The notes below the pieces were generated by a model that searched no databases, was not told the origin of the DNA, and was given only the letters and a program-made list of their open reading frames with translations. DNA of 30,077 bases from IMG/VR virus record IMGVR_UViG_3300010413_000121, positions 1-30,077 of that record; one strand, 5' to 3'. Below, piece after piece: positions 2,401 to 20,685 of the stretch (positions are counted from its first letter, which is position 1; each line of letters opens with the position of its first letter). The stretch comes from a virus. The translations under genes were made by a program, and so were the position numbers.

Positions 2401-2724
2401 ATGGTAAAAAAATATATACCATTATATGAAAGTATTGGGATTGATGATAATGATTTTAAAAAAATATTACCTTATCTTTTAAGAATGGAAAAAGAGTATT
2501 TAAATAATAAAAATAATATTATTATTATTTTAATTTCAGATTTTGTAAATAAGTTAAATAAATGGTTTAAAATTACAAATTTAGAAAATTTAATTACTTC
2601 TTATACATTAATTGGCAGTATCGGTGAGAAGATGTTAAAAAGAAAGGTAGATAAAAAAATTATTTATAATATAATAGAAATGTTAAATAAAGCTTTTGAA
2701 AAAGCAGGAAAAGCAAAATTATAA
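2401..2724 (+). CDS. Hypothetical protein with capsid-targeting-like N-terminus, 107 aa
   Basis: The start follows GAGGAAAG. The N-terminus MVKKYIPLYESIG is a divergent version of the MKxYKS(L/I)(F/Y)(K/E)E signature, and L-Y-E fits an (L/I)-x-E prohead-protease site. The rest is helical and lysine/asparagine-rich, with a hydrophobic stretch NNIIIILISDFVNKL around residues 38-52 that may be a buried helix rather than a membrane span. No known domain is recognised. It sits in a late operon with two further signature-bearing proteins, so a virion-internal role is plausible but inferred. Confidence 0.7.
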   Translation: MVKKYIPLYESIGIDDNDFKKILPYLLRMEKEYLNNKNNIIIILISDFVNKLNKWFKITNLENLITSYTLIGSIGEKMLKRKVDKKIIYNIIEMLNKAFEKAGKAKL

Positions 2725-2735
2725 ATAGGGGTAAA

Positions 2736-3131
2736 ATGAAAAGATATAAAAGTGTAGTTAAAAAAATAAATGAAGGTACTTCAAAAAGTGTAGTACTAGC
2801 ACAAAATATTGTAAATGAAATAAATAAAGTTTTTGGAAAATCCATTTTAAAAGTAAAATTAACAGATGATAATTCAAAAAGTAAAACTGATAAAACAACG
2901 GGTGTTGATAGAGAAATAATTAGTTTATCATTTGAATTTATATATCAAATGAATCCGAGTGATCCTTTTATTGATACTTCTTTATATTCAAATGGAAAAG
3001 CATATATTTACCCCACAAAAAAAGCATTACAAACTGTAAATGAAATTTTAACAAGAAAATATGGATTTGAAGAAGTAGATTATAGTAATACAGGAACTAC
3101 TTTTTGGGTAATGAAAGAAATAGAGGGATAA
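2736..3131 (+). CDS. MKRYKS-type putative internal virion protein, 131 aa
   Basis: It begins MKRYKSVVKKINEGTSKS. The signature occupies the first ten residues, and the first protease-like site is I-N-E at residues 11-13. The remainder looks like a compact alpha/beta domain (ILKVKLTDDN, EIISLSFEFIYQMNPSD, YGFEEVDYSNTGTTFWVMKEIEG), but I cannot place it in a family. It starts 12 nt after the previous stop with an AGGGG site and ends 4 nt before the next ATG. This fits an operon of small late proteins that share only their N-terminus. Confidence 0.75.
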   Translation: MKRYKSVVKKINEGTSKSVVLAQNIVNEINKVFGKSILKVKLTDDNSKSKTDKTTGVDREIISLSFEFIYQMNPSDPFIDTSLYSNGKAYIYPTKKALQTVNEILTRKYGFEEVDYSNTGTTFWVMKEIEG

Positions 3132-3135
3132 TAAA

Positions 3136-3393
3136 ATGAAAATAAAAGAATACAAACAATTATATGAAAGAAAATTACATTTTGTAAATGATGATGGAAG
3201 TAGTTTTTCTTATGATGAAAATCATTCTTGTAAAAATGCAGATATTCAAAATGAAATTATTGGTGCATATTGTGATATGAATGACTGTGATTGGGATAAA
3301 ATGTTAAAAGCTATGCAGAAACGGTATAAAGAACAACAGAAAATTAGAACAGTAGGGGAATTTGTAGATTTTTTAGATTCTATTGAATATTAG
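3136..3393 (+). CDS. MKxYKx-type putative internal virion protein, 85 aa
   Basis: It begins MKIKEYKQLYERKLHF, a signature variant with an L-Y-E protease-like site at about residues 9-11. The body is acidic and has four cysteines (residues about 32-53: SCKNADIQ..., YCDMNDCDW) that could bind metal or be incidental. The C-terminus RTVGEFVDFLDSIEY is probably helical. No known family is recognised. Its start is 4 nt after the preceding stop and uses an AGAGGGA site. Confidence 0.72.
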   Translation: MKIKEYKQLYERKLHFVNDDGSSFSYDENHSCKNADIQNEIIGAYCDMNDCDWDKMLKAMQKRYKEQQKIRTVGEFVDFLDSIEY

Positions 3394-3397
3394 TTTC

Positions 3398-3811
3398 ATG
3401 ACTTCAGGCCAAATACTTAAAAAAGAGTTAAAACTATCTAAATTTAAATTTGCACAAGTACAAAAAATTGTAAATATAGGTATTCCTATATTTATTATTA
3501 CAATAGATAGTAGATATCCTACTACTTTTCTTTCCTATTCTAAATTAGCAAAATTAAATAGTAATAAAATATTAAAAACTAGATATTTTCCACCTACTTT
3601 ATTAAATGTTGGAAAATATGAATTAAATACTTTTACATTATCACCACCTACAGATTTAGATGATTTTAACCAAAGAATTGGTAGTAATAGTATGCTAATT
3701 ATAAGAGATTTAGCTGGTGAAAGATATATGGATAAAAAGATGTATGAAAGTAAAAGAAAAGAAGGAAAATTAATTTTAAAAGAAATAAAAAATTCTGTAT
3801 ATAAAAATTAA
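3398..3811 (+). CDS. Hypothetical protein, 137 aa
   Basis: The ORF extends upstream to a TTG at 3383 inside the preceding gene. I prefer the ATG at 3398 (MTSGQILKKELKLSK), 4 nt after that gene's stop, although neither start has a clear Shine-Dalgarno. The product lacks the MKxYKS signature. It shows hydrophobic beta-strand-like segments (IPIFIITIDSRYPTTFLSY, NSMLIIRDLAGERYMDKKMYE) and a basic C-terminus. I do not recognise it. It is the last gene before an A/T tract and a sigma70-type promoter, so it probably ends the late unit that begins at 2186. Confidence 0.65.
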   Translation: MTSGQILKKELKLSKFKFAQVQKIVNIGIPIFIITIDSRYPTTFLSYSKLAKLNSNKILKTRYFPPTLLNVGKYELNTFTLSPPTDLDDFNQRIGSNSMLIIRDLAGERYMDKKMYESKRKEGKLILKEIKNSVYKN

Positions 3812-3825
3812 AATACCATTTTTTT

Positions 3826-3875
3826 TAAAAAAATTAAAAAAAATAGTTGACAAAGTTATATAAGTTATATAAATT
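3826..3875 (+). promoter_or_regulatory. Sigma70-type early promoter with A-tract UP-like element
   Basis: TTGACA lies at 3847-3852 and TAAATT at 3870-3875 with a 17-bp spacer; a TATAAT at 3881 is a possible alternative -10. Immediately upstream is TAAAAAAATTAAAAAAAAT (3826-3844), a 19-mer that recurs exactly upstream of the minus-strand promoter near 18450. It precedes two genes that lack the capsid-targeting-like signature. Confidence 0.75.
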
Positions 3876-3914
3876 AAAGATATAATTAAGAATTTATTAT
3901 GTGAGGTTAATAAA

Positions 3915-4154
3915 ATGAATAAAAATGAATTACCTTCTTATCATGAATATAAATTTGTTGGTAATATAGATTGTAGAAAAGATTTGTCACATTTAAAAGA
4001 TATCAATTATAAAATTGGTGATCAAGCGTATGATCTTGATGGTAAAAAAATTCCAACTAATTATTGTTTACCTTTGTTCATTCATAAAGATGATTTTAAA
4101 AAATATGATGATATTATGATGTCAGATGATTATGTACTTCAAATATTTTATTAA
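3915..4154 (+). CDS. Hypothetical early protein, 79 aa
   Basis: Follows a sigma70-type promoter and a GTGAGG ribosome-binding site. The product (MNKNELPSYHEYKFVGNID...) is acidic, mixed alpha/beta in appearance, and without a signal peptide, membrane segment or known motif. It lacks the MKxYKS signature seen in the late genes around it. Its early-type promoter suggests a host-takeover or metabolic role, but no function can be assigned. Confidence 0.7.
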   Translation: MNKNELPSYHEYKFVGNIDCRKDLSHLKDINYKIGDQAYDLDGKKIPTNYCLPLFIHKDDFKKYDDIMMSDDYVLQIFY

Positions 4155-4431: not shown

Positions 4432-4444
4432 TTACTAATAAAGG
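4432..4444 (+). promoter_or_regulatory. Candidate late promoter overlapping a ribosome-binding site
   Basis: TTACTAATAAAGG matches the late motif through position 11 and then runs into AAAGGAG, the Shine-Dalgarno of the gene at 4454. It would place the signature-bearing block 4454-6781 under late control. It is the weakest copy because the final ATA of the consensus is replaced. Confidence 0.45.
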
Positions 4445-4453: not shown

Positions 4454-5077
4454 ATGAGTAATATAAAAAATTATGAATCTTTATACAAAGAATCTTCTTT
4501 GTCACGAATATGGAAACATAATATAGAACATGATTGTGGTGCTATAACTGCTTTTAGAAAATGTACGGATTGTGATTGTACTAATGGAAGATTATATACT
4601 AAAAAAGAAAAATTACAGAGAAATAAATCTTTAACTGCACAATTAATAAGTTTGGGTTATGGTGTTATTAGACTTAATGGTAAATATCCTGAAGGAGATA
4701 AAGTTACTAAAGAAATTAGTTATTTTGTTGTAGATTTGAAAGATTCAGGTTATTTAGAAAAAGATATTATACGTCTTGGAAAAGATTTTCAACAAGACAG
4801 TGTTTTGTTTATACCAAAAGGTGCTATAGAAAATAAATCTAAAGCATATCTTATAGGAACTAATCATTGTGAAAATAATTGGTTAGGTTTTGGTAAAAAA
4901 GAAATTTTTAATAAAGGTAAATTAGGTTATGAATCACCTATTTATACCAGTTATGTAAATGGGAGACCTTTTATATTTGAAAGTGTTGATAAAGAAATTA
5001 AACCCCCGGGGTCTGGTATGGGTTGGTGGTTAATGAGAAGAATAGCCGAAAAAAATTGGAAAGATATAGAGGTATAA
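4454..5077 (+). CDS. Putative internal virion protein, paralog A (207 aa)
   Basis: Signature N-terminus NIKNYESLYKESSLSRIWKH. The body matches the next gene closely: AFR near residue 35, RN-x-x-L-x-x-QL-x-SLGYGV, a FVVDLKD strand, LGK-x-F-x-QDSV, and a C-terminal NGRPF-x-FE. I recall related proteins, also with a short targeting-like N-terminus, in T4-like and other large phages, with no established function. Cysteines cluster at about residues 37-44 (KCTDCDCTNG), unlike paralog B, and might bind metal. The C-terminus (PPGSGMGWWLMRRIAEK) differs from paralog B. The ribosome-binding site is AAAGGAG. Confidence 0.8.
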   Translation: MSNIKNYESLYKESSLSRIWKHNIEHDCGAITAFRKCTDCDCTNGRLYTKKEKLQRNKSLTAQLISLGYGVIRLNGKYPEGDKVTKEISYFVVDLKDSGYLEKDIIRLGKDFQQDSVLFIPKGAIENKSKAYLIGTNHCENNWLGFGKKEIFNKGKLGYESPIYTSYVNGRPFIFESVDKEIKPPGSGMGWWLMRRIAEKNWKDIEV

Positions 5078-5079: not shown

Positions 5080-5691
5080 ATGGAAATAAAAAAATATAAA
5101 GGTTTATACAAAGAATCTTCTTTGTCACGAATATGGAAACATGTAATTGAACATGATTCAGGAACTATTTCAGCTTTTAGATATGCTTCTAATTGTGGAA
5201 ATGGTGAAATATATAGTAAAAAACAAAATAAAGATAGAAATGCTAAATTAAAAGTTCAATTACTTAGTTTAGGTTACGGCGTAACTTCTATTGATGGTGT
5301 TTATATTGAAAATTATAAAACTTCTGATGCTGTAGAAGTTAGAGAAGAAAGTTTTATTGTAATTGATATAAAAGATAAAGGTAATCTTAAAAAAGATTTA
5401 ATAAGACTTGGTAAACAATATGAACAAGATAGTATTACTTATAGTAAACCTAATGGTGATTATTATCTTATAAGTTCTAATGAATGTCCTAATGCATATC
5501 CTGGAAATGGAAAAATAGGTGTTGAAGTAAAACTAGGTAAACCGTTTTTTGGAAGTGATGGTGAATTTCATTCTAAAATTAATGGTAGACCTTTTGTTTT
5601 TAAAGAATGTTTATTAAAAAGAATTGATGTTCTTTCTAATTATTCTATATCTGAAATAAGAAGTATAAAACATTTAGCTGAAGAGGATTGA
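5080..5691 (+). CDS. Putative internal virion protein, paralog B (203 aa)
   Basis: Begins MEIKKYKGLYKESSLSRIWK. The ORF is open back to 5023, but the ATG at 5080 is chosen because it restores the signature, follows AGAGGT, and lies just after the stop of paralog A. It shares with paralog A the KESSLSRIWKH-x-IEHD block, LLSLGYGV, an F-(I/V)VID(I/L)KD strand, LGKQYEQDS and NGRPFVF. It adds an acidic insertion (TSDAVEVREES) and retains SSNECPNAYPGNGK, matching a similar segment in A. The two genes are a tandem duplication; B appears closer to the form I recall in other large phages. Confidence 0.82.
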   Translation: MEIKKYKGLYKESSLSRIWKHVIEHDSGTISAFRYASNCGNGEIYSKKQNKDRNAKLKVQLLSLGYGVTSIDGVYIENYKTSDAVEVREESFIVIDIKDKGNLKKDLIRLGKQYEQDSITYSKPNGDYYLISSNECPNAYPGNGKIGVEVKLGKPFFGSDGEFHSKINGRPFVFKECLLKRIDVLSNYSISEIRSIKHLAEED

Positions 5692-5694: not shown

Positions 5695-6048
5695 ATGAAA
5701 ATAAAATCATATAAATCAATTTTCGAAACAAGTGAAGAACCTCTTTGGGAAATGTCTAATTTTTTTCCGAATGATACTGGATTAGAACATGTTATATGGA
5801 TTTCAACTAAAACAGGAAGAGAAAAACATGGACCAAGAATTAAAGTATTTGGAAAAGATGGAGAAATTCATATAAGTATTTCTGATGAACCTGAAATAAA
5901 AAAACAACTGGGTAAAATAAATATTAAAAAAAGAGCTTTGAATAAAATATTTGATTTTATAAAATTAAATAAAGATGTATTGTTATCACATTGGAACGGA
6001 AAAATAAGTAGTAAAGGTCTTAGTGATAAAATAAAGTCAATAAATTAG
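5695..6048 (+). CDS. MKxYKS-type putative internal virion protein, 117 aa
   Basis: Begins MKIKSYKSIFETSEEPLWE, with I-F-E a candidate protease site at residues 9-11. The body has a conserved-looking small domain: HVIWISTKTGREKHGPRIKV, ISISDEPEIKK, and a helix ending LLSHWNGKISSK. Without the N-terminal tag this resembles small phage proteins with a KHGPRIKV / VSIS / LLKHWNG pattern that I remember as uncharacterised. The tag therefore looks added to a pre-existing small domain. It starts 4 nt after paralog B. Confidence 0.78.
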   Translation: MKIKSYKSIFETSEEPLWEMSNFFPNDTGLEHVIWISTKTGREKHGPRIKVFGKDGEIHISISDEPEIKKQLGKINIKKRALNKIFDFIKLNKDVLLSHWNGKISSKGLSDKIKSIN

Positions 6049-6052: not shown

Positions 6053-6781
6053 ATGACAAAAAAATATAAATCATTATTTGAAAAACAACAACTTGGAGAA
6101 GAATTAAGAATTTCTGATTTAGCCGGTAATGCTGGAATGAGTGATTATAAATCTTTGTTTAAAGAATGGAAAGAAATAAAATTTAACGAAGATTTAAGAT
6201 TGTCGGATTTTCAAAATCATGCTGGTATCTCTAATTTTACAAAAAAATGGAAAGATGAAAGACAAGGTATAAAAGGAGCGGGAAATGTATCTGTAAGAAT
6301 AGTTAGATTAATTGTAAATAAAAAAAGAGATTATGTAACTTTTGTATTTTATTCAGCACCTACTTATGATTTTACTGCGAGAGTTGTAAAACCAAAAAGT
6401 GATTTTAAAATAAATGGTAAAAGACCTTTTTATGTGCAAGAATTAAGAATATTAGATTTTTTTAAATGGGCAAAAACCACACCTGGGTATAAAGCAGCAA
6501 AATACCTATCCACTGATGATTTAAAAGATATATTTAAAGTAAGCTCAACTAAGGTATTTTGTACGTGTCCGTCATTTCATTGGCAAGGTATGAATGCAAT
6601 AGACAGTATGTTCAATGCTTCAATATATCCTACAGATATTCCTCCCACTCAATGGCGAAAGTTTCACAATGATGATTCTTTTGCATGCAAGCATCTTGAT
6701 ATTTTGTTTTCATCTATTTACTTCTGGTTATCTCCAATGGCAAGTATGTTAAATAAATATTTAAAAGAAAAACTTAAATAA
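6053..6781 (+). CDS. SWIM-type zinc-finger protein with duplicated capsid-targeting-like N-terminus, 242 aa
   Basis: Residues 1-70 hold an internal duplication. YKSLFEK (5-11) is followed by GEELRISDLAGNAGMSDYKSLFKEWKE, then EDLRLSDFQNHAGISNFTKKWKDE, so the signature occurs twice and a third degenerate copy follows. The C-terminal half contains C-x-C at 170/172 (VFCTCPSFHWQGM) and C-x-H at 212/214 (ACKHLDI), the C-x-C-x(n)-C-x-H pattern of SWIM zinc fingers, which bind DNA or protein. No ATPase or transposase domain accompanies it. The start is 4 nt after the upstream stop with no obvious Shine-Dalgarno. It is the last gene of the late block. Confidence 0.8.
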   Translation: MTKKYKSLFEKQQLGEELRISDLAGNAGMSDYKSLFKEWKEIKFNEDLRLSDFQNHAGISNFTKKWKDERQGIKGAGNVSVRIVRLIVNKKRDYVTFVFYSAPTYDFTARVVKPKSDFKINGKRPFYVQELRILDFFKWAKTTPGYKAAKYLSTDDLKDIFKVSSTKVFCTCPSFHWQGMNAIDSMFNASIYPTDIPPTQWRKFHNDDSFACKHLDILFSSIYFWLSPMASMLNKYLKEKLK

Positions 6782-6870: not shown

Positions 6871-6888
6871 TTTATTACTAATAAATAT
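6871..6888 (+). repeat. Left copy of 18-bp direct repeat flanking TnpB (late-promoter motif)
   Basis: TTTATTACTAATAAATAT is identical to 8159-8176 on the other side of the TnpB gene, giving a 1288-bp period. It contains the late-promoter motif, and its last two bases begin the TnpB start codon. It may be a promoter duplicated with the insertion, or the insertion target itself. Confidence 0.8.
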
Positions 6889-8903: not shown

Positions 8904-10391
8904 ATGAAACATTACAAAAAATTAAAATTAAATACATATCTCAGTATTTTTAAAGAAGATTTTATAAAAAAAGATGTATCGAAAGCTGTTACTTTAATAA
9001 CAAAAGTATTAAGTACTAGATTAGGAGAAAAAATAGATGTTTCTCCTTATTCTTATATTTATAAAAAATCTGATGGTACTTATGAAGGATATCTAGGTAT
9101 TTTTGGAAATAAAATGATTCGTTTTAATTTTAAAGTAGGAAATACTTCAGGAAATATGGTGAATATTGATGTATGGAATTCAGTTAAAGAATATCCTGAT
9201 ATAACTATAGATGTTTCAAATGTAAATGTAGTACAAGCTTTAGATATAATTACAGAAGCTATTAAAAAGGGTGTTCCTAGTGTATATATGTTTTCTGAAA
9301 AAACAGTACCAAAAACAGGAGGAAAAGTATCAAAAGACATATCAGCGTCTATAAATTCATGGGCTGAAAAAATGTCTATAAATGATATAAAATTACAGAA
9401 TTCAAGATTTTCTCATTTATATAATGATTACAAATTCTGGTTTAATGAATATGGTGAAGCAGAAGGTTATAGATTGGCTTCTCAAGCTTCTTTTACAAAG
9501 TATTTACAAGAATATATGCAGAAATATAATCTTGAAAATATTTTTACTAGAAAAATAACAGTTACAAAAGGTGGATCATATCAAACTGTTGTAAACAAAA
9601 AAGATAAACAAACTTTTGATTCTTCTTTATATAAAATGGATTTAGATGATTTAATGGAACTCATTCAAATGGGTGTTGTAACAGTAATTAAAGGTTATAA
9701 AAATTCTGTTTTAATAACAGGTACAGCGGGAATTGGGAAATCTAAAAGTGTTATTGAAGAATTAAAAGCAAGTGGATATTCAGAAGCACCTAGAAGTAGA
9801 AAAATGATTAAAACAAAGACTTTTACTGATTTTGAACCAATATCAGGTAAAGCGTATAAACTTATTTCAGGTGATATAAAAAATCCAAGAGCTTTGTATA
9901 TGTTACTACATGATTGGAATGATCCTAATTTAATTTTAGTTTTTGATGATGCTAATGCTGTTATAAAAAATAAAAGTAATGTAGAATTAATGCGAACAGC
10001 AACATCTAAAGGCGATAGAAAAATAACATATACTGATAGTAAAATAAATACTGATAATGAAAGATATAAAACTACAATAGATTTTAAATCTAAAATTATC
10101 ATTATAACAAATATTCCTAAAAATAAAATTGATTCAGCAATAGTTTCAAGAACATCTCCTATTGAAGTTACACCTTCACAAGAAGATATTTTTGATTCTA
10201 TTAGAAGAAATTTGAATGAAATAGAACCTACAGGTGAATTGGAAGCTAAAAATGATGTATTAAATTTTTTAGAAGACACTTTAGGTAATAAGATAAAGCA
10301 AATTGACTTCCGGGTCTTCATGGAATCTATTATTTTTAGACTAACTGGAAGTCCCCATTGGAAAAAGCATGTTTATGCTATAGTAACATAA
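8904..10391 (+). CDS. AAA-family ATPase with capsid-targeting-like N-terminus, 495 aa
   Basis: The C-terminal half carries Walker A GTAGIGKS (residues 273-280), Walker B LILVFDD (343-349), sensor-1 IIITN (ending about 403) and SRTSP with a candidate arginine finger near 416, so it is a complete AAA-type P-loop ATPase. The N-terminal ~260 residues have no recognised domain. Unusually, the protein opens MKHYKKLKLNTYLSIFKEDF, which contains the signature (YLSIFKED), including an I-F-K-E site, shared with the small putative internal proteins. A motor or remodelling ATPase in the virion would be notable, but a cytoplasmic role in replication or assembly is also possible. The start is 1 nt after the holin-like gene. 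Confidence 0.85.
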   Translation: MKHYKKLKLNTYLSIFKEDFIKKDVSKAVTLITKVLSTRLGEKIDVSPYSYIYKKSDGTYEGYLGIFGNKMIRFNFKVGNTSGNMVNIDVWNSVKEYPDITIDVSNVNVVQALDIITEAIKKGVPSVYMFSEKTVPKTGGKVSKDISASINSWAEKMSINDIKLQNSRFSHLYNDYKFWFNEYGEAEGYRLASQASFTKYLQEYMQKYNLENIFTRKITVTKGGSYQTVVNKKDKQTFDSSLYKMDLDDLMELIQMGVVTVIKGYKNSVLITGTAGIGKSKSVIEELKASGYSEAPRSRKMIKTKTFTDFEPISGKAYKLISGDIKNPRALYMLLHDWNDPNLILVFDDANAVIKNKSNVELMRTATSKGDRKITYTDSKINTDNERYKTTIDFKSKIIIITNIPKNKIDSAIVSRTSPIEVTPSQEDIFDSIRRNLNEIEPTGELEAKNDVLNFLEDTLGNKIKQIDFRVFMESIIFRLTGSPHWKKHVYAIVT

Positions 10392-10402: not shown

Positions 10403-10633
10403 ATGAAACGATATAAAAGTATTATAAAAGAAGAAAAAAAATTTAGAGTGGTTGAACCATTAAGTGGTGGTTTTATGCAATTTACTATTAAGGAACTTTC
10501 AGATGGAACTGAAATTATTAAAATTGATCACTGTGATTTGGGTCCTTATAGAACAGGTGGGTTAAAAGACCCGAAGAAAGTTGTAGAAAAAGCTCTTCAT
10601 AATTTTGTGAAAGAAATAACTATAGATTGGTAA
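10403..10633 (+). CDS. MKRYKS-type putative internal virion protein, 76 aa
   Basis: Begins MKRYKSIIKEEKKFRVVEPL, with I-K-E at residues 8-10 matching a gp21-type (L/I)-x-E cut site. The ATG at 10403 follows AGAGGTTAT. The ORF is open 15 codons further upstream into the ATPase gene, but the signature and ribosome-binding site fix this start. The body is a small beta-rich domain ending in a helix (DPKKVVEKALHNFVKEITIDW). No family is recognised. It is the first of four signature proteins in a row. Confidence 0.8.
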   Translation: MKRYKSIIKEEKKFRVVEPLSGGFMQFTIKELSDGTEIIKIDHCDLGPYRTGGLKDPKKVVEKALHNFVKEITIDW

Positions 10634-10641: not shown

Positions 10642-10872
10642 ATGAAAAGATATAAATCATTATACAAAGAAGGTAATTATAAATATGATGTAGTTGGTGG
10701 TTATGTAAAAGGATTTTTTAATATTTATCAAGCAAAAAATGGATATTTGTATTTAATGATGGGGAAAGTAATTACAAAACTTGAAAAAAATCAAATAGAT
10801 GATTTGAATATAGATGTTTATTCTCTTATTGATTTTGATTTTGATAATTATAAAAAAGCTTATGGTATTTAA
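10642..10872 (+). CDS. MKRYKS-type putative internal virion protein, 76 aa
   Basis: Begins MKRYKSLYKEGNYKYDVVGG. The start at 10642 restores the signature and follows AAAGGTTAT. The ORF continues upstream by five codons without support. The body suggests beta strands (GYVKGFFNIYQAKNGYLYLMMGKVITKL) and an acidic C-terminal helix. Apart from the first ten residues it is unlike its neighbours, so the shared tag is not explained by whole-gene duplication. Function unknown. Confidence 0.8.
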   Translation: MKRYKSLYKEGNYKYDVVGGYVKGFFNIYQAKNGYLYLMMGKVITKLEKNQIDDLNIDVYSLIDFDFDNYKKAYGI

Positions 10873-10877: not shown

Positions 10878-11120
10878 ATGAAAAGATATAAATCTGTTAT
10901 AAAAGAACAAGAAATAGAGAGTTATGAAATTGATCCTAAAGTAAAAGAAATTTTAGAAATACTTAGGGATAACAATTATGGTAATGAATCAAGTAGAAAA
11001 GAAATGTTAAGTTTACTTTCTACTCTTCATACTAAAAGAGATAGAGTTGCAAGAAAAGTATTTAAACAATTAGGTAATTTGTTTAATACATTATCAGATG
11101 AATTAATAAGTGGAGTTTAA
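10878..11120 (+). CDS. MKRYKS-type putative internal virion protein, 80 aa, helical
   Basis: Begins MKRYKSVIKEQEIESYEIDP, with I-K-E at residues 8-10. The rest is helical (VKEILEILRDNNYGNESSRKEMLSLLSTLHTKRDRVARKVFKQLGN). It shows weak similarity to the gene at 20173: an L-x-DN-x-G segment followed by L-x-x-LS and a V-x-x-K helix. The two may be diverged paralogs in distant signature clusters. The upstream ribosome-binding site is poor and the gene may rely on coupling with the previous one. Confidence 0.78.
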   Translation: MKRYKSVIKEQEIESYEIDPKVKEILEILRDNNYGNESSRKEMLSLLSTLHTKRDRVARKVFKQLGNLFNTLSDELISGV

Positions 11121-11122: not shown

Positions 11123-11350
11123 ATGAAAAGATATAAGAGTTGTTTAAAAGAAGGTATGAAATATGATAGTATTTATTTTGAACCTAGTTATAATATATCA
11201 GATAATGATGGAGAAAAGTTAGTAACTGTTTTAGGTGAATCAGAAGTTTTTGTAAAAGAACTATATAGATGGAAAAAGATGGGTGTTACTCATGTTAAGG
11301 GATTTTCTGGAAAAGGTAAAGGTGGGGAATTTATACCTTTATGGAATTAA
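11123..11350 (+). CDS. MKRYKS-type putative internal virion protein, 75 aa
   Basis: Begins MKRYKSCLKEGMKYDSIYFE, with L-K-E at residues 8-10. Two adjacent ATGs (11120 and 11123) follow GGAG; the second gives the exact signature length and the first overlaps the upstream stop, so either may be used. The body (DNDGEKLVTVLGESEVFVKELYRWKKMGVTHVKGFSGKG) looks like a small alpha/beta fold. No family is recognised. It is the last of four consecutive signature genes before the protease-scaffold gene. Confidence 0.78.
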   Translation: MKRYKSCLKEGMKYDSIYFEPSYNISDNDGEKLVTVLGESEVFVKELYRWKKMGVTHVKGFSGKGKGGEFIPLWN

Positions 11351-11611: not shown

Positions 11612-13603
11612 ATGACCTTTGAAGAAATAGCAAAACAAAAGGGAAAAGAGAAGTTAGAAGAAAAAAGATATATCTATATTCCTAAAGAAAATATAGAAAT
11701 ATATGATAAATCTAAAATGATTGAAAGTAATGGTGAAAAATTTCCAGCTAGGGGTATTTTAAGAAATATTAAAATATCAACTTATAATGAAAATGATAAT
11801 GGTAGAATTTATCCTAAAAAACTTTGGGAAAATGTTAAAAAATTAGGTATGGCAGAAGGCACAACTAGTTTACTTGGACACCCTGAAGATGATGGAAACC
11901 CTGAAGATATTTGTGGTGTTTGGCATGGTTTAAGGATTATGGAGGATGGTCCTTATTCAGATTTATATTTAACTGGTAGTAAAGGACAGGATATGCTAGA
12001 ACATTTTCAAGGCGGGGCTAAAATTGGTGTGTCAAGTGTTGGTTATGGTGAATTTGAAGAATCAGATGGTAAAACTGTAAAATGGGAAAGTTATGAACTT
12101 TCACGCATAGGCGATCTAGTTTTAGATCCGAGTCAAGGTACTTATGCAACTCATGAAAATTTAGAACAAAGTCAATCAGTGCAAGAGTCTAATATCGAAA
12201 AAGATAAAATTAAAGAAGATGTTAGTAAACCTATAAAAGAAAACACTGTATTTTTTGAAGAAGAAAATACTAATAATAAAAGTGTATTAAAAAAAGAAAC
12301 ACAAAAAAATGAGGTAATTATGGATAAGATTCACGAAGCGAATTTCAAGAATCATGTCAAAGTTCTTATTAAAGAAGCCAAGAAAAATTCTAATGTAAAG
12401 GAAGGAATTGAAGACCTTCAGAATATTGAAATTCCTGAAGGGATTGATCCCATACTTCATGATAAGATAAATGATGCGATTGTTGAACTTCAAGAAAAAC
12501 TTGATAGAGAAAAAAATGATGCTGAAAAATCTCTTCAAGAAACTTCTAAATCTTTAGAAGAAGCTAATTCAAAAATTAAAGAAATAGAAGATAATTTTAA
12601 AGATTTAAATGAAAAGTATCAGAAAGCTAAATCTATTATTGAAAAAGTTGGACTAGATGAAAGTATTGAAAATATAGAAGATATTGAAAAATTAGAAGAA
12701 GTTAAATCTGATTTAAATCAATTACTTGAAAATGAATCTAAAATGTCTTATGATATTAAATGTTTAAGAGAAGACAGAAAAGTAATGTTTTCTGATATTA
12801 AACAATTAGTAGAAGATAGAAAGATAATGAAGTCTGATATAAAAGAACTTCTTAAAAAACTTGAACAAGTTACTAAAAATTCAAAATCTTTTAAAGAAGA
12901 TTTAGATAAAGCTAATAAAAGAATTAAAGTTTATGAGCAAGAACTTGAAAATATGGGATACCAATTTGAGAATGAAGAAGAAGATGAAGACGAAATGACA
13001 ACAGAACCCGTTGATGTTAGTACAGAAGTTTCTGTAGAAGAAGAACCTTTAGAATATTCAGGTGAAGAAATTCAGATGGAAGAACCTGTTGAAGAAGAAG
13101 ATGAAATGGGGATAGAAAATGATGAAGAAATTGTTGTAGAAGAAGATGATATGGAATGGAAAGATGAAGAAGAAATAACAGAAGAAGACGATATGGAATG
13201 GAAAGATGAAGAAGAAATAACAGAAGAAGATGAAACTGGAGATGAAGACGAAGAAGAAATTATGGAAGCTGACGAAGATGAAGAAGAAATTGTGACTGGT
13301 GATATGAGTTATGAAGAAAAATGTTCTAAAAAAGAAAATAAAAAAGTTAATAAAAAAGAAATTACTGAAAAAATTAAAAGGCAGGTTGTAACCGATCAAA
13401 TTAAAGCTTATTTAAAAGAAGAGATTAAATATAATCCTTCAATTAAAGATATAACAAAAGAAGTTATGAAATCTAAATCAATTACTGAAGCTGTAACTAA
13501 AGTTAAAAAATTTACTTCAAAGAGTAAAAAAGAAAATTTGATTAAGATTGATAATTCAACTCCAAACAAACCTAGCACATCATGGTTAGGTAACAGAAAA
13601 TAA
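11612..13603 (+). CDS. Prohead protease fused to scaffolding protein, 663 aa
   Basis: Residues 1-190 are a T4 gp21-like prohead protease: FPARGILRNIKIST, NGRIYPKKLWENV, SLLGHPEDD (candidate catalytic H90), KIGVSSVGYGE (S141/S142), and SRIGDLVLDPS (D172 a possible third residue). Residues 237-450 are a long coiled coil. Residues ~455-565 are extremely acidic with a 14-residue tandem repeat. The C-terminus is basic with PSTSWLGNRK. This matches protease 21 plus scaffold 22 of T4 joined in one frame. The enzyme should cut prohead proteins after (L/I)-x-E, the site seen in the nearby signature proteins. An internal start at 12320 would yield scaffold alone. Confidence 0.9.
   Translation: MTFEEIAKQKGKEKLEEKRYIYIPKENIEIYDKSKMIESNGEKFPARGILRNIKISTYNENDNGRIYPKKLWENVKKLGMAEGTTSLLGHPEDDGNPEDICGVWHGLRIMEDGPYSDLYLTGSKGQDMLEHFQGGAKIGVSSVGYGEFEESDGKTVKWESYELSRIGDLVLDPSQGTYATHENLEQSQSVQESNIEKDKIKEDVSKPIKENTVFFEEENTNNKSVLKKETQKNEVIMDKIHEANFKNHVKVLIKEAKKNSNVKEGIEDLQNIEIPEGIDPILHDKINDAIVELQEKLDREKNDAEKSLQETSKSLEEANSKIKEIEDNFKDLNEKYQKAKSIIEKVGLDESIENIEDIEKLEEVKSDLNQLLENESKMSYDIKCLREDRKVMFSDIKQLVEDRKIMKSDIKELLKKLEQVTKNSKSFKEDLDKANKRIKVYEQELENMGYQFENEEEDEDEMTTEPVDVSTEVSVEEEPLEYSGEEIQMEEPVEEEDEMGIENDEEIVVEEDDMEWKDEEEITEEDDMEWKDEEEITEEDETGDEDEEEIMEADEDEEEIVTGDMSYEEKCSKKENKKVNKKEITEKIKRQVVTDQIKAYLKEEIKYNPSIKDITKEVMKSKSITEAVTKVKKFTSKSKKENLIKIDNSTPNKPSTSWLGNRK
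12311..12322 (+). promoter_or_regulatory. Internal ribosome-binding site and start for a nested scaffold
   Basis: GAGG followed by TAATT and an in-frame ATG (12320) lies inside the protease-scaffold gene, at the point where the linker gives way to coiled coil. Such a site is uncommon by chance in A/T-rich coding DNA. It matches the nested protease/scaffold arrangement known from lambda C/Nu3. Confidence 0.6.
12320..13603 (+). CDS. Nested scaffolding protein from internal start, 427 aa
   Basis: Starting at methionine 237 of the fused protein (MDKIHEANFKNHVKVLIKEA), this product would contain only scaffold: a coiled coil with EDRKIMKSDIKELL-type repeats, an acidic stretch, and a basic C-terminus likely to contact the capsid protein. 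Support comes from the GAGG site 5 nt upstream and the change of character at this point: preceding residues (NTNNKSVLKKETQKNEVI) look like a linker, and codons just after it are more C-rich (TTC, CAC, GCC), as in the capsid gene. T4 makes its scaffold gp22 separately. Whether both forms are made here is inference. Confidence 0.55.
   Translation: MDKIHEANFKNHVKVLIKEAKKNSNVKEGIEDLQNIEIPEGIDPILHDKINDAIVELQEKLDREKNDAEKSLQETSKSLEEANSKIKEIEDNFKDLNEKYQKAKSIIEKVGLDESIENIEDIEKLEEVKSDLNQLLENESKMSYDIKCLREDRKVMFSDIKQLVEDRKIMKSDIKELLKKLEQVTKNSKSFKEDLDKANKRIKVYEQELENMGYQFENEEEDEDEMTTEPVDVSTEVSVEEEPLEYSGEEIQMEEPVEEEDEMGIENDEEIVVEEDDMEWKDEEEITEEDDMEWKDEEEITEEDETGDEDEEEIMEADEDEEEIVTGDMSYEEKCSKKENKKVNKKEITEKIKRQVVTDQIKAYLKEEIKYNPSIKDITKEVMKSKSITEAVTKVKKFTSKSKKENLIKIDNSTPNKPSTSWLGNRK
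13142..13225 (+). repeat. 42-bp tandem repeat (two copies) in the acidic scaffold region
   Basis: Units 13142-13183 and 13184-13225 differ by a single base and encode DDMEWKDEEEITEE-type blocks, with related acidic sequence on both sides. It is an in-frame duplication that lengthens the acidic tract and probably varies in copy number between relatives. Confidence 0.9.
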
Positions 13604-13718: not shown

Positions 13719-15143
13719 ATGGATAAACATGGTAGAAAACAAAAAATGCAAGAAGAAGCCCAACGATATCTTCTTGGAAGAAAAGCAAGGGCTGATAAAC
13801 TTGTAGAAAAATGGTCAAAAACTTCTCCGGGTGCTGGATTAGATTCTTTATATACTAAAGAACCTACAAACGCAAGAAACACGGCTATGTTGGTTGAAAA
13901 CCAAGAAAGATATTTAAGACGACTTCCTGAAGCTGTTATTTCTCAAAATTTTCAAACAAGACCTGAAAATGTTCTTAAAGTTGTTAGAATTGGTTCTGCT
14001 AATTCAAACAGACAAAATATTTTTACAGAATTTCCTCTAGTTACTACTGATGATGCCATTTTCTTCATTGATATGACATATGAAAGTACTCTTAGGGGAG
14101 CAACCGCTGGTGATAAAATTTATGAAAATGTAAATAGATTTTATGCTGGTGAATCTTATGAAACATCTCAAGCAGGTAATGATACTACTACTAACGCTGT
14201 TACTGTAGCTAAAGCTCCTATTATTCCTAATAAAGTCCATATTATGGTTGATAGAGAATTAGTAGGTTATGATGATGGTGATGGTTCAATCGTTCCTGTT
14301 GGTACTACTTTAGATAGTAATGGTACAGTTAATTATACCACTGGTGTTATAACAATAACTTCAAGTGCTGCTATTACTTCTGCTGAAACAATTGCAGTTT
14401 TAGTACATTTTGATTCAGAAAGATCAACTCTTTATGATCAATTTGGTAAAGTTAGTCTTGAACTTTCTAAGAAAAGATTTGAAGCAAGACCACATCCTCT
14501 TGGATATACATATTCAATGATGACTGCTATCACTCTTGAAACCACAGGTGTAGGTGATGCAGAAGACTTACTTCTTACCGCTGTAGGTGATGAACATGCT
14601 AAATCGAGAGATTATAAAGCGATTGCACTTGCTAGAAGTGTTGCTTTAACAAATACTTCTTATACGTTTAATGCAAATTTCGCAGCTGCCGGTGAAGTAA
14701 GTGATAAACTTCATGCTCAAAAACTTCTTTCTAAAGTTAATGTTATTGGTGGTGATATTTACAATACTCTAAAAAGAGGAAGAGTAAATAAAGCTGTTGC
14801 TGGAACAGAAGCTCTTGAATATATGAAGAAACACGATTTGTGGAAAACTGATAATACTCAAAATAGAGTTGGTGTATATTTGGCTGGTTCCCTAGATGAT
14901 ATCGAAGTTTATTGTTGTCCTTCTGATGCACAACTTGTAGGAGTAAATGAAGTTATTCTTACATTTAAAAACCCTGAAGAAATGATGGATATTAGTTTGG
15001 CGTTTGGTGTTCTTACTGAAATTGATGCTGCTTTAAATTATCCTGAATTTTACAAAGATGGTAATATGGCAACAGTTGAAGATCATATGAGGATTACTCC
15101 TGAGTTCGTAAGATTGTTAACCATAAATAATCTGAGTTTCTAA
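13719..15143 (+). CDS. Major capsid protein, T4 gp23-like
   Basis: At 474 aa it lies directly after protease-scaffold, as gene 23 follows 21-22 in T4. The region PEAVISQNFQTRPENVLKVVRIG and NIFTEFPLVTTDDAIFFIDMTYES is typical of gp23-like capsid proteins, and the C-terminal half has FEARPHPLGYTYSMMTAITLE and DHMRITPEFVRLLTIN. The N-terminal ~70 residues are basic and helical and contain L-V-E at 58-60 and L-P-E at 69-71, candidate prohead-protease sites comparable to the T4 gp23 cut after residue 65. The central VDRELVGYDDGDGS...TGVITITSS region reads as an inserted beta domain. The ribosome-binding site is ACGAGGT. Codons favour CTT, GCT and GGT, consistent with high expression. Confidence 0.92.
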   Translation: MDKHGRKQKMQEEAQRYLLGRKARADKLVEKWSKTSPGAGLDSLYTKEPTNARNTAMLVENQERYLRRLPEAVISQNFQTRPENVLKVVRIGSANSNRQNIFTEFPLVTTDDAIFFIDMTYESTLRGATAGDKIYENVNRFYAGESYETSQAGNDTTTNAVTVAKAPIIPNKVHIMVDRELVGYDDGDGSIVPVGTTLDSNGTVNYTTGVITITSSAAITSAETIAVLVHFDSERSTLYDQFGKVSLELSKKRFEARPHPLGYTYSMMTAITLETTGVGDAEDLLLTAVGDEHAKSRDYKAIALARSVALTNTSYTFNANFAAAGEVSDKLHAQKLLSKVNVIGGDIYNTLKRGRVNKAVAGTEALEYMKKHDLWKTDNTQNRVGVYLAGSLDDIEVYCCPSDAQLVGVNEVILTFKNPEEMMDISLAFGVLTEIDAALNYPEFYKDGNMATVEDHMRITPEFVRLLTINNLSF

Positions 15144-15626: not shown

Positions 15627-16274
15627 ATGAATGAAGATTTAAAAAATATTATTTTATATCAGGACACAAAAAAAGAAAAGTACATTAATTTTTTAATAAA
15701 CAAATATAATAATTTGGTGTGGGGTTATGTGAATAGAATTTATAAAAAATATAAAAATTTAAGTCTTTCACCTAACGACATCTATCAGGATCACATAATT
15801 ATTTTTATACAAGTAATAAATAGAGTAGATAGAAACAAAATTAAAAAAAATGTTAATTTTAATTTTATTTTTTGTGTATATCAAGATTTTAAAGCTTATT
15901 CAAAAATATTAGAAAAAAGATACATATCATATAACTATGTATCAATATATTTTGATTTAGAAGGATTAGAATCCGATATGAAAAAAGGGGTGTATTATGA
16001 TATATGTGATAAAAGATATAATGTTGATAATAATTTTTTAAAAGACGATTTATATAATTTTTTAAATAATTTATTTGAAATAGACAGACAAGTTTTTGAA
16101 TTAATACTTCAAGGTTATAATCTATTGAATATTTCAAAAGAATTAAATCAAAAATATTATAAAATTAAAAAAATAAAAACGAAATTAATTTCTTATTTAA
16201 AAACATATATGTTAAATTTAGGATATACAATAGAAGATTTACAAAGAAATTATTTTTGTGATGCATTTTTTTAA
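15627..16274 (+). CDS. Putative sigma-70-family factor (late sigma candidate), 215 aa
   Basis: The N-terminal half resembles sigma region 2: FLINKYNNLVWGYVNRIYKK followed by SPNDIYQDHIIIFIQVINRV (residues about 48-67), like the D-(L/I)-x-Q-(E/D) core of ECF-type sigmas. The C-terminal part resembles region 4: FEIDRQVFELILQGYNLLNISKELNQKYYKIKKIKTKLISYL (about 150-191), a helix-turn-helix with the R-x-V-x-x-L start. The length is close to T4 gp55 (185 aa). It is transcribed from an early promoter and ends at its own terminator. It is the natural candidate to recognise the TTACTAATAA motif. The protein is highly diverged, so the assignment rests on pattern and context. Confidence 0.55.
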   Translation: MNEDLKNIILYQDTKKEKYINFLINKYNNLVWGYVNRIYKKYKNLSLSPNDIYQDHIIIFIQVINRVDRNKIKKNVNFNFIFCVYQDFKAYSKILEKRYISYNYVSIYFDLEGLESDMKKGVYYDICDKRYNVDNNFLKDDLYNFLNNLFEIDRQVFELILQGYNLLNISKELNQKYYKIKKIKTKLISYLKTYMLNLGYTIEDLQRNYFCDAFF

Positions 16275-16363: not shown

Positions 16364-18355
16364 ATGGAAAATAAAGAAAATGTTAGGAAATTACTTGATT
16401 TAACTTATGAAAAATTAAATCTTCAAGAAAAAATAAAAATGCATCTTTTATTTAAAGATTTAAATAAAGATGATCAATTATATAATCAATTAAGAAAAAT
16501 TATTTTTAGAATGGAACCTCCTTCACCAGAACAATTTCTTGATCATCATGAAGGTTGGTTAACTAAACCGTTTACTGAATCTCTTTATGATCATGTAAAA
16601 GAAGATTTTTGTGAAATATTAAACCCTGATAAAAATTATGAACAAATATGTGAATACGGATGCACACGGCAAGGTAAGAGTTGGATGGGCAGATTACTTA
16701 TTATGTATACAATGATTTATGTACATTGTTTACGTCACCCCCAATTATACTATGGTTTAGCTCCTACAACATCATTGAGTATTTATATAATGTGTTTTAA
16801 AGAAGAAAAAGTAAAACAATTGTTACTTGAACCTATATTTAAATTTTTATTTGCATCCCCTAGATTTAAAAATATAAGATTTAAAGATAAAGTGAGTGAA
16901 ACTCAATATAAAAATGGATTAGAAAATATATATTGGAGTAAAGCAGCAACTTTTGGTGAAATAACAATGGATTCAGGGTTATCTTTGAATTTAGGTACTA
17001 AATTTGATTCTTTTATAGGAGCGGATTTATTATTCCTTATTGTATCAGAAATAGCTTTTTTTATACAACAGGCTGGTGCTACACATGAAGATATTTTTAA
17101 AATATATACAGAAGGTAGAGATAGAATACAAGCAACGGTAGGTAAAAATTATTTAGGAATGGTATATCTTGACACTTCAGCCAATGATACTGAAAATCCC
17201 ATTGAAAAATATATTTTAAATGATTTACAACATCAAGATAATGTTTTTTTTAAAAAAAGAGCTAGATGGGAAGCTAGACCTTATTTATATCCAGAATGGT
17301 ATTCTACTGGAAAAACATTTAAAATATGTACAGGAGATGGGCATAACCCCCCTAAAATAATAAAAAATGAATTAGAATTAAAAGATATTCCTAGAAAACT
17401 TATTAAAGATATTCCTATTGATGCTTATAAAAGATTTCAAGATGCTATTCTTCAAGGTATAAGAAATGAAGCTGGTGACCCAACTACAAAAGAAAATAAA
17501 TTTATTACAGAAAAAGTAATAATTGATAGTATTTTTTCTAATCCACATCTAAGAAATATTGAAGGTGGTTTAATTGCAGAAGCTTCAAATTTTCCTGAAC
17601 AATTATTATGGAATCAAATTAAAGATAAATTTTTTATAAACTATGATGATAAACAAAATTATATATATAGAGCACCTCTTGAACCAAGATTTACAGGAAA
17701 TGATTTAGCACATTCAATAAAAGGCGATGTTCAAGGTTTTTGTTTATTACATAAAGAATGGAGTTTAAAAAGAGAGTGTATAATGTATATAATAGATTTT
17801 TGTTTTATTATATACGCAAAAGAATCAGGAATAAATCTTGAAGCAATAACTCATTTAATAATGGATTTGTTTAAAGAAGGTAGTGTAGCAATAAAAAGTT
17901 CAGGTTCAGATAGTTTTCAAAGTCAAACATTAATACAATATTTAAAAAGAAACAATATTGAAGCAATAAAACAATCGGTTGATGATTCATTAAATCCCTA
18001 TCAATATTTTTTAACTTGTTTAAAACAGGGTATAGTAAAAGCAGGTAAAAATATATTTTTAGCTAATAATTTAGATTCACTTATTGAAGATACAACAAAA
18101 AGTGGTAAAAAAAAAATAGATCATATAAAAGGTAAAACAAATAATAATTATTTAGGAGATTGGAATAGAAGTACTTGTGGTATAAATGCAAAAGATTGTT
18201 CTGATGCTGTTTGCCAAGCTTTATGGACTGCTAAAAATAATCAACATCATCCAACTACTATTTATGAAGAAGAAAATAAAAAGTTTGAAGCAAAACCTGA
18301 AGATGTAGAAAAATTTGTTTCTAATGCTTGGAATAAATTACATATAAATTATTAA
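16364..18355 (+). CDS. Terminase large subunit (packaging ATPase/nuclease)
   Basis: Drives DNA into the prohead and cuts it. The N-terminal ATPase has a Walker A-type loop CEYGCTRQGKSWMG (residues about 97-109) and a Walker B-like LLFLIVSEIAFF (E229 as catalytic glutamate). The C-terminal RNase H-like nuclease shows acidic strands SIKGDVQGFCLLH (D455) and MYIIDFCFII (D478), and a late helix region with DDSLNPYQYFLTCLKQGI. At 663 aa it is on the long side but within the range of large phages. No small terminase or portal gene is recognised in the window. The start has no Shine-Dalgarno and touches a late-promoter motif. Confidence 0.88.
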   Translation: MENKENVRKLLDLTYEKLNLQEKIKMHLLFKDLNKDDQLYNQLRKIIFRMEPPSPEQFLDHHEGWLTKPFTESLYDHVKEDFCEILNPDKNYEQICEYGCTRQGKSWMGRLLIMYTMIYVHCLRHPQLYYGLAPTTSLSIYIMCFKEEKVKQLLLEPIFKFLFASPRFKNIRFKDKVSETQYKNGLENIYWSKAATFGEITMDSGLSLNLGTKFDSFIGADLLFLIVSEIAFFIQQAGATHEDIFKIYTEGRDRIQATVGKNYLGMVYLDTSANDTENPIEKYILNDLQHQDNVFFKKRARWEARPYLYPEWYSTGKTFKICTGDGHNPPKIIKNELELKDIPRKLIKDIPIDAYKRFQDAILQGIRNEAGDPTTKENKFITEKVIIDSIFSNPHLRNIEGGLIAEASNFPEQLLWNQIKDKFFINYDDKQNYIYRAPLEPRFTGNDLAHSIKGDVQGFCLLHKEWSLKRECIMYIIDFCFIIYAKESGINLEAITHLIMDLFKEGSVAIKSSGSDSFQSQTLIQYLKRNNIEAIKQSVDDSLNPYQYFLTCLKQGIVKAGKNIFLANNLDSLIEDTTKSGKKKIDHIKGKTNNNYLGDWNRSTCGINAKDCSDAVCQALWTAKNNQHHPTTIYEEENKKFEAKPEDVEKFVSNAWNKLHINY

Positions 18356-19396: not shown

Positions 19397-19620
19397 TAAC
19401 TATAAAAATTTCTCTTGAAACTTTTAAAAAGATTTGGGATAAAATAAAGAAGTTTTTTAAACATAAAGTAACTAAAAATTCAATTATTATTATAGTAATT
19501 GTTACTGTACTTTATGGTTTTTCTATGTCTTGGTCATATGATAAAAGACGTGGTTTAAGGTGTAATGGTGGATTTTCACCACCTGAACCGGATACTATAA
19601 ATAAAGTAATAAAAAGATAA
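19360..19620 (+). CDS. Basic single-span membrane protein, 86 aa
   Basis: The best start is the ATG at 19360 (MPKKKKNKKEKIITIK), inside the end of the preceding gene; an ORF start at 19327 is less likely. An extremely lysine-rich cytoplasmic half is followed by one span (NSIIIIVIVTVLYGFSM, about residues 50-66) and a short outside tail with GGFSPPEPDT. The final codons (VIKR stop) coincide with the eroded start of the following duplicated gene. It could be a holin or antiholin component of the cassette. Confidence 0.6.
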   Translation: MPKKKKNKKEKIITIKISLETFKKIWDKIKKFFKHKVTKNSIIIIVIVTVLYGFSMSWSYDKRRGLRCNGGFSPPEPDTINKVIKR

Positions 19621-19868
19621 GAAATTATTTAAAAGATATGAAAGATATTGAAGAAGTTTTAAATGAAAATTATTTTAATAAATTAGTAAACGATTTGATT
19701 AATGAATTAGAAAAATCCTGGAACAAGAATTTACAAGATATTAGTGAATGGTTTAAAAAAGAGTTTGAAAAAAAGAATATTGTGAATAAAAAAATACAAA
19801 ATTTAATAAAAGAATATGTTTTATATTTTTATTTTATATTAAAAGATTCAAATTATGAGATTAAATAA
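19609..19868 (+). pseudogene. Decayed copy of the gene at 19910 with lost N-terminal signature
   Basis: From 19638 (MKDIEEVLNENYFNKLVNDLINELEKSW...) this 76-residue frame is a close paralog of the protein at 19910 from that protein's residue 15 onward. The bases upstream, from 19609, still align with the start and signature of the intact copy, but ATG has become ATA, one base is missing after AAAAGATA, and about 12 nt are absent before the internal ATG. The signature is therefore destroyed. The internal ATG has no Shine-Dalgarno. It is either a pseudogene or a truncated, untagged version. Confidence 0.6.
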
Positions 19869-19909
19869 ATGAATAAATATAAATTTTTTGTTAGAAAAGG
19901 TATACTTTA

Positions 19910-20176
19910 ATGAAAAGATATAAAAAATTATTTGAGAGAGAAGAAATAACTATGAAAGATATTGAAGAAGTTTTTAGTGAAAAATCTTTTAATGAATTAG
20001 TAAGTGAATTAATAAATGAATTAAAAGAATCGTGGTCAAAAGACATACAAGATATTGGAGATTGGTTTGAAGAACAATTTCAAAAAAGAAACATAGTAAA
20101 TGAGAAAATGAAAAATCTAATAAAAGATTTTGTTATATATTTTAAGAATCAAAATATTTTGAAAGAGGTAAAATGA
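19910..20176 (+). CDS. MKRYKK-type putative internal virion protein, 88 aa
   Basis: Begins MKRYKKLFEREEITMKDIEEV, with L-F-E at residues 7-9 as a candidate prohead-protease site. The rest is an acidic helical domain (FNELVSELINELKESWSKDIQDIGDWFEEQFQKRNIVNEKMKNLIKDFV). It is the intact copy of a tandem duplication whose other member (19638-19868) has lost the signature. The start follows AAAAGGTATAC and the stop overlaps the next start as ATGA. Confidence 0.8.
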   Translation: MKRYKKLFEREEITMKDIEEVFSEKSFNELVSELINELKESWSKDIQDIGDWFEEQFQKRNIVNEKMKNLIKDFVIYFKNQNILKEVK

Positions 20177-20424
20177 ATAAATACAAAAGTTACAAAAGTA
20201 TTTTCGACAAAAAAATAAAAGTTGTTGAACAAGAATCAGAAGAAGAAAAAGCAAAAGAATCAATAAAATGGCTTATTGATAATGATTGGGGTGTTGATAA
20301 TGACTCTCAGGGTAAAGCCAGCCAACTTTTTAAAGCTTTATCATTCAATAATTCATCTGTATCGAATAAATTTATGGATGAAGTAAATAAATATACTTCT
20401 ACATTAAAAGATAAATATCAATAA
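20173..20424 (+). CDS. YKSYKSIF-type putative internal virion protein, 83 aa
   Basis: Begins MNKYKSYKSIFDKKIKVVEQ; the YKS element is repeated within the tag. The body is helical (AKESIKWLIDNDWGVDNDSQGKASQLFKALSFNN). It may be a distant paralog of the protein at 10878 (shared L-x-DN-x-G, then L-x-x-LS, then V-x-x-K). The start overlaps the preceding stop as ATGA and follows AAGAGG. Confidence 0.78.
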   Translation: MNKYKSYKSIFDKKIKVVEQESEEEKAKESIKWLIDNDWGVDNDSQGKASQLFKALSFNNSSVSNKFMDEVNKYTSTLKDKYQ

Positions 20425-20448
20425 ATTAAATCATGGGGGTTTTTGAAT

Positions 20449-20685
20449 ATGAATAAATATAATTCTATATTTGAATCAGATAAAAAATTTTCTGATATGT
20501 CTATTGAAGAATTATATGATGAACGTGATAAACTTTTGAATAGTCAAATAAAAGCAGATTTTATTGATCCTAAAATTATGAGAAAGGTTCAAGAAATAGA
20601 TAATTTAATTTTTGATATTTCAAAAAAAATTAAAAAAGGAAAAAGGAGTCAAAGAACAATTAGTTTTACAAGAGACAGAAGATAA
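20449..20685 (+). CDS. MNKYNSIFE-type putative internal virion protein, 78 aa
   Basis: Begins MNKYNSIFESDKKFSDMSIE, with I-F-E at residues 7-9. The ATG at 20449 is chosen over a TTG two codons upstream because it gives the signature and sits well behind GGGGG. The body is a helical hairpin (SIEELYDERDKLLNSQIKAD; RKVQEIDNLIFDISKKIKK) ending in a very basic tail (KKGKRSQRTISFTRDRR) that could bind DNA inside the capsid. The stop overlaps the next ATG by one base (TAATG). Confidence 0.78.
   Translation: MNKYNSIFESDKKFSDMSIEELYDERDKLLNSQIKADFIDPKIMRKVQEIDNLIFDISKKIKKGKRSQRTISFTRDRR

Follow-up and report, generated by a model that had tools for sequence, protein, structure and literature searches.

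In the IMG/VR virus record IMGVR_UViG_3300010413_000121 (30,077 bases, about 25% G+C; this whole stretch is called the window below), fifteen proteins begin with a common leader, or tag: M-K-R-Y-K-[SP]-[LIV]-[FIL]-[KE]-E or a variant of it. Nearly all genes of the window lie on the same strand, and here they are named by their start positions. They follow the order NAD-dependent ligase, small genes, protease (11612), major capsid protein (13719), sigma-factor-like protein (15627) and terminase (16364); after the terminase there are further small genes and then tail or fibre-like genes. A sequence-only reading of this DNA had listed the fifteen starts, and a check of the open reading frames (ORFs) showed that all of them are ATG starts with the N-termini that it gave; the ORF of 11123 has an alternative start at 11120, which makes 11123 its second Met. 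Twelve tags are clear (2401, 3136, 4454, 5080, 5695, 6053, 10403, 10642, 10878, 11123, 19910 and 20449). Three are weaker: 2736 has VVKKINE, in 8904 another copy (TYLSIFKE) lies deeper in the protein, and in 20173 the tag reads IFD, with Asp for Glu. Gene counts, obtained with a simple custom gene caller, are approximate.

The leader in the window and in a related genome

We scanned 2.9 million IMG/VR viral contigs with a degenerate DNA pattern of the tag only. The pattern matched 44 stretches, and multiple matches (seven) were found only in IMGVR_UViG_3300035670_000085 (99,896 bases; called G001 here). G001 was also the sole tag-matched contig encoding relatives of the window capsid protein (43%, E 2.8e-110) and protease (37%, E 3.3e-53), and it carries about 28 tagged genes. 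Most of the single-copy matches outside G001 appear to be chance matches or the conserved N-termini of other protein families (a radical-SAM family, for example) and were left uncounted. A search of IMG/VR with the capsid protein alone gave no matches, and a search with the terminase gave only loci at about 30% identity.

Some of the tags listed for the window and for G001 were chosen by visual inspection, and the blind tests described below (cross-profiles and de novo search) were intended to offset this. Among the 36 tags in register, Tyr4 is present in all, Lys2 in 33, and L, I or V at position 7 in 33. F, L or I predominates at position 8, with Glu at position 9 or 10 in most tags. Hydrophobic-x-Glu was found within the first 14 residues of 40 of the 43 tagged proteins and of 39 of the 174 untagged ones (p = 4e-18). 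As had been stated, most window tags contain (L/I)-x-E in the first 13 residues (10 of 15 under the strict pattern). Within the first 14 residues, the strict pattern occurs in 24 of the 43 tags, and in 40 if F, Y or V is allowed at P3. As a putative cleavage motif, hydrophobic-x-E fits the tags, rather than the strict (L/I)-x-E. The first acid of the tags is Glu in 41 cases and Asp in one (p = 7e-10), with Asp making up 44% of the acids in the same proteins.

With a profile trained on G001 only, 10 of the 15 window tags scored higher than 99.9% of internal windows, and no untagged window gene did so. The profile trained on the window recognised 24 of the 28 G001 tags, again with no untagged gene, and in the shuffled-tag controls for the two cross-profiles 7 of 3000 and 6 of 5600 passed. 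We also used a de novo detector that groups N-termini common to genes with unrelated bodies and is supplied with no motif. It grouped 11 body-unrelated genes of the window and 26 genes of G001; with shuffled N-termini the largest group was 1–2. The proposal that the tag could list the whole set genome-wide worked in G001 with the tag scan and the detector.

The bodies of the 43 tagged proteins form 38 homology groups. The statement that the rest of each protein differs is correct for the bodies generally, but not for 4454 and 5080, which are paralogues with 45.6% identity. Every copy of MKRYKS is spelled with its own codons (11 of 11 in G001, 5 of 5 in the window), which indicates that selection acts on the peptide. 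Judged by this codon usage, the leader is a peptide signal and not a DNA-level signal. Pfam and PHROGs searches assign no function to most of the tagged proteins (Table 1).

The gene at 6053–6781 has a tandem tag duplication: its second Met (6137), absent from the earlier list, aligns with the starts of the orthologues in G001 and in a further relative, G045, so the tag and about 18 residues are repeated upstream. A structure prediction for 6053 from a three-sequence input gave no usable model (predicted local distance difference test, pLDDT, 40). The window paralogue of 19910, located at 19638–19868, has no tag.

Table 1. Tagged genes, head genes and promoter-like sites of the window
Feature	Position	Strand	Leader	Remarks
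Tagged protein	2401..2724	+	MVKKYIPLYES	
Tagged protein	2736..3131	+	MKRYKSVVKKINE	Weak at cleavage end
Tagged protein	3136..3393	+	MKIKEYKQLYER	
Tagged S-adenosylmethionine lyase family protein (predicted)	4454..5077	+	MSNIKNYESLYKE, then SSLSR	Pfam PF23780 6.5e-07; promoter-like TACTAATA upstream at 4433
Tagged S-adenosylmethionine lyase family protein (predicted)	5080..5691	+	MEIKKYKGLYKE, then SSLSR	Pfam PF23780 4.4e-11; 4454 paralogue
Tagged protein	5695..6048	+	MKIKSYKSIFET	
Tagged protein	6053..6781	+	MTKKYKSLFE (6053), MSDYKSLFKE (6137)	Two tags; kept in G001 and G045
AAA-type ATPase-like protein	8904..10391	+	MKHYKKLKLNTYLSIFKE	Degenerate or double tag; phrog_1250 8e-16; AAA_16 below cut-off
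Tagged protein	10403..10633	+	MKRYKSIIKEE	
Tagged protein	10642..10872	+	MKRYKSLYKEG	
Tagged protein	10878..11120	+	MKRYKSVIKEQ	Orthologue is G001 46136
Tagged protein	11123..11350	+	MKRYKSCLKEG	Orthologue is G001 48436
Prohead protease, gp21-type (modelled)	11612..13603	+		Long acidic coiled C-terminal part
Major capsid protein	13719..15143	+		
Sigma-factor-like protein	15627..16274	+		phrog_351 1.3e-08; adjoins capsid gene
Terminase large subunit	16364..18355	+		TACTAATA upstream at 16350
Tagged protein	19910..20176	+	MKRYKKLFERE	Untagged paralogue at 19638
Tagged protein	20173..20424	+	MNKYKSYKSIFDKK	Asp at expected P1; orthologue is G001 92089
Tagged protein	20449..20685	+	MNKYNSIFESD	
TACTAATA motif sites	2187, 4433, 6876, 16350, 18479, 23126, 26191, 29128			3–40 bases before genes

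Gene position and the prohead protease

In G001, tags are concentrated in a block from 37.9 to 52.8 kb that runs up to the protease and capsid genes: 20 of its 29 genes have one. The 49 genes from 52.8 to 69.9 kb all lack a tag. The remaining tagged genes, with the exception of 8044, lie mostly in structural regions, and tags recur in operons that are not linked to each other. Clustering of tagged genes beside the protease and capsid genes was also found in G045 and in G046, a locus with a related protease. By strand, tags in G001 were found on 27 of 111 plus-strand genes and on none of 60 minus-strand genes (p = 3e-6; for proteins shorter than 200 amino acids, 1.6e-7).

The motif TATACTAATA (TTACTAATA in the window) has 20 sites in G001 against 1.8 expected. 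These sites lie 3–40 bases upstream of structural genes, of the terminase and of the tagged genes 41287, 44586, 77383 and 98671. In the G001 minus-strand block, a motif of this type precedes 0 of 48 genes. The motif looks like a late promoter, and the 15627 product is a candidate late sigma factor that may read it. From the motif and the operon position, the tagged genes appear to sit in late or structural operons. The sequence-only reading had named an equal frequency of the tag in early genes as an outcome contrary to its proposal. The 48-gene minus-strand block carries no tags and also lacks the late-promoter-like motif, so such equal occurrence was not seen.

The assignment of a protease to 11612 agreed with the structural comparison. 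We obtained an AlphaFold model of residues 1–225 (pLDDT 80.5); its top PDB matches were three chains of T4 gp21 (5jbl, E 4.8e-8 to 5.7e-8), and nothing else was significant. According to this model, the 11612 product has the gp21 fold. His90, Ser141 and Asp168 are invariant across 16 protease homologues and are candidate catalytic residues. [LI]-x-E is present inside the first 30 residues of 18 of 18 protease homologues, and T4 gp21 carries its own LIE-9 in the N-terminal region (PMC9026906). The window protease has an acidic, coiled C-terminal half whose end resembles that of the G001 protease, which suggests a fused scaffold.

Putative cargo and leader dialects

The PF23780 scores of 4454 and 5080 are 29.8 and 43.3 bits (cut-off 28), and we predict that both are members of the S-adenosylmethionine lyase family with the corresponding activity. 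A PDB sequence search with lyase 5080 found no relative. The family is also present in Campylobacter, Microcystis, Alishewanella and Prevotella phages. In six lyase sequences from five phages, the Glu directly before the S-L-x-R of the body is invariant, and the leaders before it differ; the residues preceding the putative cut are YKE, YKE, LGE, LSE, FNE and LNE. Further recognisable tagged cargo of G001 includes a SprT-like protein and a DUF5661 protein. By family, some of the tagged cargo probably has an anti-defence function (the lyases, and Acb1 in the phage Slicko01 described below), which is consistent with the effector role that had been proposed as possible. The window also encodes an ArdC-like anti-restriction protein (28227–29060, phrog_7245 3e-59), which is without a tag.

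A second leader, MxLIxELxxLLE, is borne by genes that flank the protease and capsid gene in G046 and its kin (L085, L093), which are among the loci with related proteases. This leader was found on 7 of 17 head-module genes vs. 2 of 99 genes elsewhere. The detector applied to the whole T4 genome returned ipI, ipII, ipIII and gene 61.1; on the whole lambda and T7 genomes it returned nothing. T4 gp61.1 (AF158101 18966–19130), annotated as hypothetical, starts with MKTFKEFIKED, a capsid-targeting-like leader. In Alishewanella phage Slicko01 the detector found nine to eleven genes with MKIDxLYESLLEE. This set includes an anti-CBASS Acb1 nuclease (PF23474, 1.7e-30) and an ADP-ribosyltransferase (PF18760, 2.1e-11); for the region covered, the annotation calls them hypothetical. 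A run of seven tagged "hypothetical" genes of this phage lies at OQ508956 86525–91558, and several of the seven have F/Y-H-x-T/S motifs, suggestive of ADP-ribosyltransferases; further tagged genes of Slicko01 are at 97101 and 56478. In Campylobacter phage CP220, a group II phage, five to eight genes start with MxFxDYL, the lyase among them; CPT_0126 and CPT_0131–0133 belong to its tagged genes.

Peptidase_S77 is present in T4, Slicko01, CP220, Mel-JY01, Lak-C1, QdP_Psa3 and G046, and weakly in G001; it was not found in lambda or T7. No leader set was detected in the whole genome of Microcystis phage Mel-JY01, though its lyase has the LGE leader. QdP_Psa3 and phiXF1, which are distantly related through capsid protein and protease, had no common leader in the partial sequences examined. 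Mel-JY01 and the QdP_Psa3 part have the protease and no detected leader set, and so the link between protease and leader is not strict. The ML-K-K-I-I starts of L067 were judged to be a paralogous domain and not a tag, since the similarity runs into a longer shared segment. In L011, an unrelated viral contig, an ART-PolyVal ADP-ribosyltransferase (3434–3919) starts with MKLYKFLFEE.

We consider it somewhat more probable than the opposite that leaders of the capsid-targeting kind act as a general code for delivery across many phages that carry gp21-type proteases. The dialects of such a code would be characteristic of lineages (MKRYKSLFKE, MxLIxELxxLLE, MKIDxLYESLLEE and MxFxDYL..NE, all ending in hydrophobic-x-Glu) and would serve up to about 28 different proteins per phage. 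Unrelated anti-defence enzymes would move onto the leader of the local lineage, and a simple search for N-termini held in common would read out the injected arsenal.

Proposed delivery into the head and competing explanations

The T4 record gives the leaders MKTYQEFIAE (IpII, IpIII) and MKTFKEF (IpI). In the T4 leader, residues 4 and 7 serve targeting, and residues 8 and 10 processing; Asp10 blocks processing only (PMC9026906). The likeness to this capsid-targeting sequence that the sequence-only reading had pointed out was borne out position by position (Tyr4, hydrophobic residues 7 and 8, Glu10), and the presumed P1 Glu is hardly ever exchanged for Asp. As in T4 IpI–III (Mullaney and Black), a 10-residue N-terminal leader stands on otherwise unrelated small proteins, together with a gp21-fold protease and anti-restriction cargo. 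However, T4 has three internal proteins; tagged proteins number 15 in the 30-kb window and about 28 in G001, and their genes cluster beside the protease. At least 10 internal proteins have been reported across related phages (PMC12373910). The leader itself also differs (MKRYKSLFKE vs. MKTYQEFIAE), the head genes are only distantly related, and the protease, unlike that of T4, carries an acidic coiled tail as a fusion. The ADP-ribosyltransferase Alt of T4 is an injected enzyme with a short leader (MELITELFDE), which the G046 leader resembles; Alt is a single protein, whereas G046 has a gene set. The N-terminal signal of phage P1 DarB is comparable: its first 30 residues direct a reporter into the head, and the protein is an injected anti-restriction factor. 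The P1 Dar proteins are without a common N-terminal consensus (PMC9024508). In the ejection proteins of phiKZ and SPN3US, a gp21-related protease cleaves N-terminal propeptides after x-x-Glu; these propeptides are mostly longer than 100 residues, with the motif S/A-x-E (PMC9026906, PMC10052503).

Thus, the leader is very probably a T4-type capsid-targeting sequence, carried here by an injected arsenal of unusual size. In the late phase of infection, about 15 (window) to 28 (G001) small proteins would be made with a leader of 9–13 residues. The leader would bind the growing scaffold core, probably via Tyr4 and hydrophobic residue 7, and bring the protein into the prohead, where the gp21-type protease from 11612 would cut after hydrophobic-x-Glu. 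The mature proteins would remain in the head with the DNA and be injected at the next infection. At least some of them would disarm host defences; S-adenosylmethionine lyase would starve methylation-dependent systems. What is new is how large the set is, that leaders come in dialects, that they are exchanged on one enzyme, and that candidate injected proteins can be listed genome-wide from the leader.

Several observations weigh against delivery with cleavage. Six tags of the window and G001 have no hydrophobic-x-Glu in the first 11 residues. G045 (49% capsid identity) has MK[RK]Y or a similar start on eight or nine genes, and about half of its leaders lack hydrophobic-x-Glu and retain the MK[RK]Y start. 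In T4 IpI the targeting and cutting parts stand apart (MKTFKEF...ITE), so the G045 leaders may be a looser dialect. In the capsid protein, LVE of the window corresponds to LVN in G045; the site of capsid cleavage is thus not fixed, and a conservation comparison did not locate it. The gp21 profile PF03420 gave no window match at E <= 1, and the likeness to gp21 is in the fold only; elsewhere this profile scored 2.2e-4, below the cut-off, in G001 and above the cut-off in G046. The sequenced virion gel bands of CP220 (only 11 major) do not include its tagged proteins (PMC2853527).

It is possible, though we regard it as unlikely, that the leader targets the prohead and often stays uncut, being a scaffold-docking helix with Glu as a binding surface and not a cleavage site. 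The G045 leaders without hydrophobic-x-Glu would suit such a helix, as would the Asp of 20173, which in T4 permits targeting but not processing. However, the Glu:Asp ratio of 41:1 at the first acid is more in keeping with a P1 site than with a generic acidic contact, Glu is invariant beside the conserved lyase body despite the changing leaders, and the other dialects likewise end in L-x-Glu. We give even less weight to an address unrelated to the head, such as the membrane, the replication compartment, the tail or a shared chaperone. The G001 tagged gene 8044, outside the late region, would agree with it, but the tags cluster beside the protease and capsid genes in three genomes, the T4 positive control was recovered, and the positions mutated in the T4 leader match. 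Finally, a common start could arise by recent gene duplication, as a translation enhancer or at a DNA-level recombination hotspot. The genes stand in tandem, and some of them are paralogues (4454/5080 and 19638/19910). Yet the differing codon spellings, the unrelated bodies, the recurrence of the leader in unlinked G001 operons and the persistence of the hydrophobic-x-Glu end while the dialects vary make this origin highly improbable.

For few phages is it known which proteins enter the host with the DNA, and virion proteomics has been needed to learn this. Should the leader prove to be a capsid-targeting code, it would be possible to list from sequence which anti-defence proteins uncultivated phages pack in advance. 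Dozens of unnamed small proteins would then be concrete candidates for inhibiting restriction, BREX, CBASS and other defences of the first response. The dialects moreover point to new addresses with which reporter proteins might be loaded into phage heads.

The late region of the window also contains likely selfish elements, named by eye (6887–8110, 21033–21980 and 24488–26122). Their types are TnpB-like, GIY-YIG endonuclease-like and minus-strand zinc-ribbon endonuclease-like, and the last one is common to G001.

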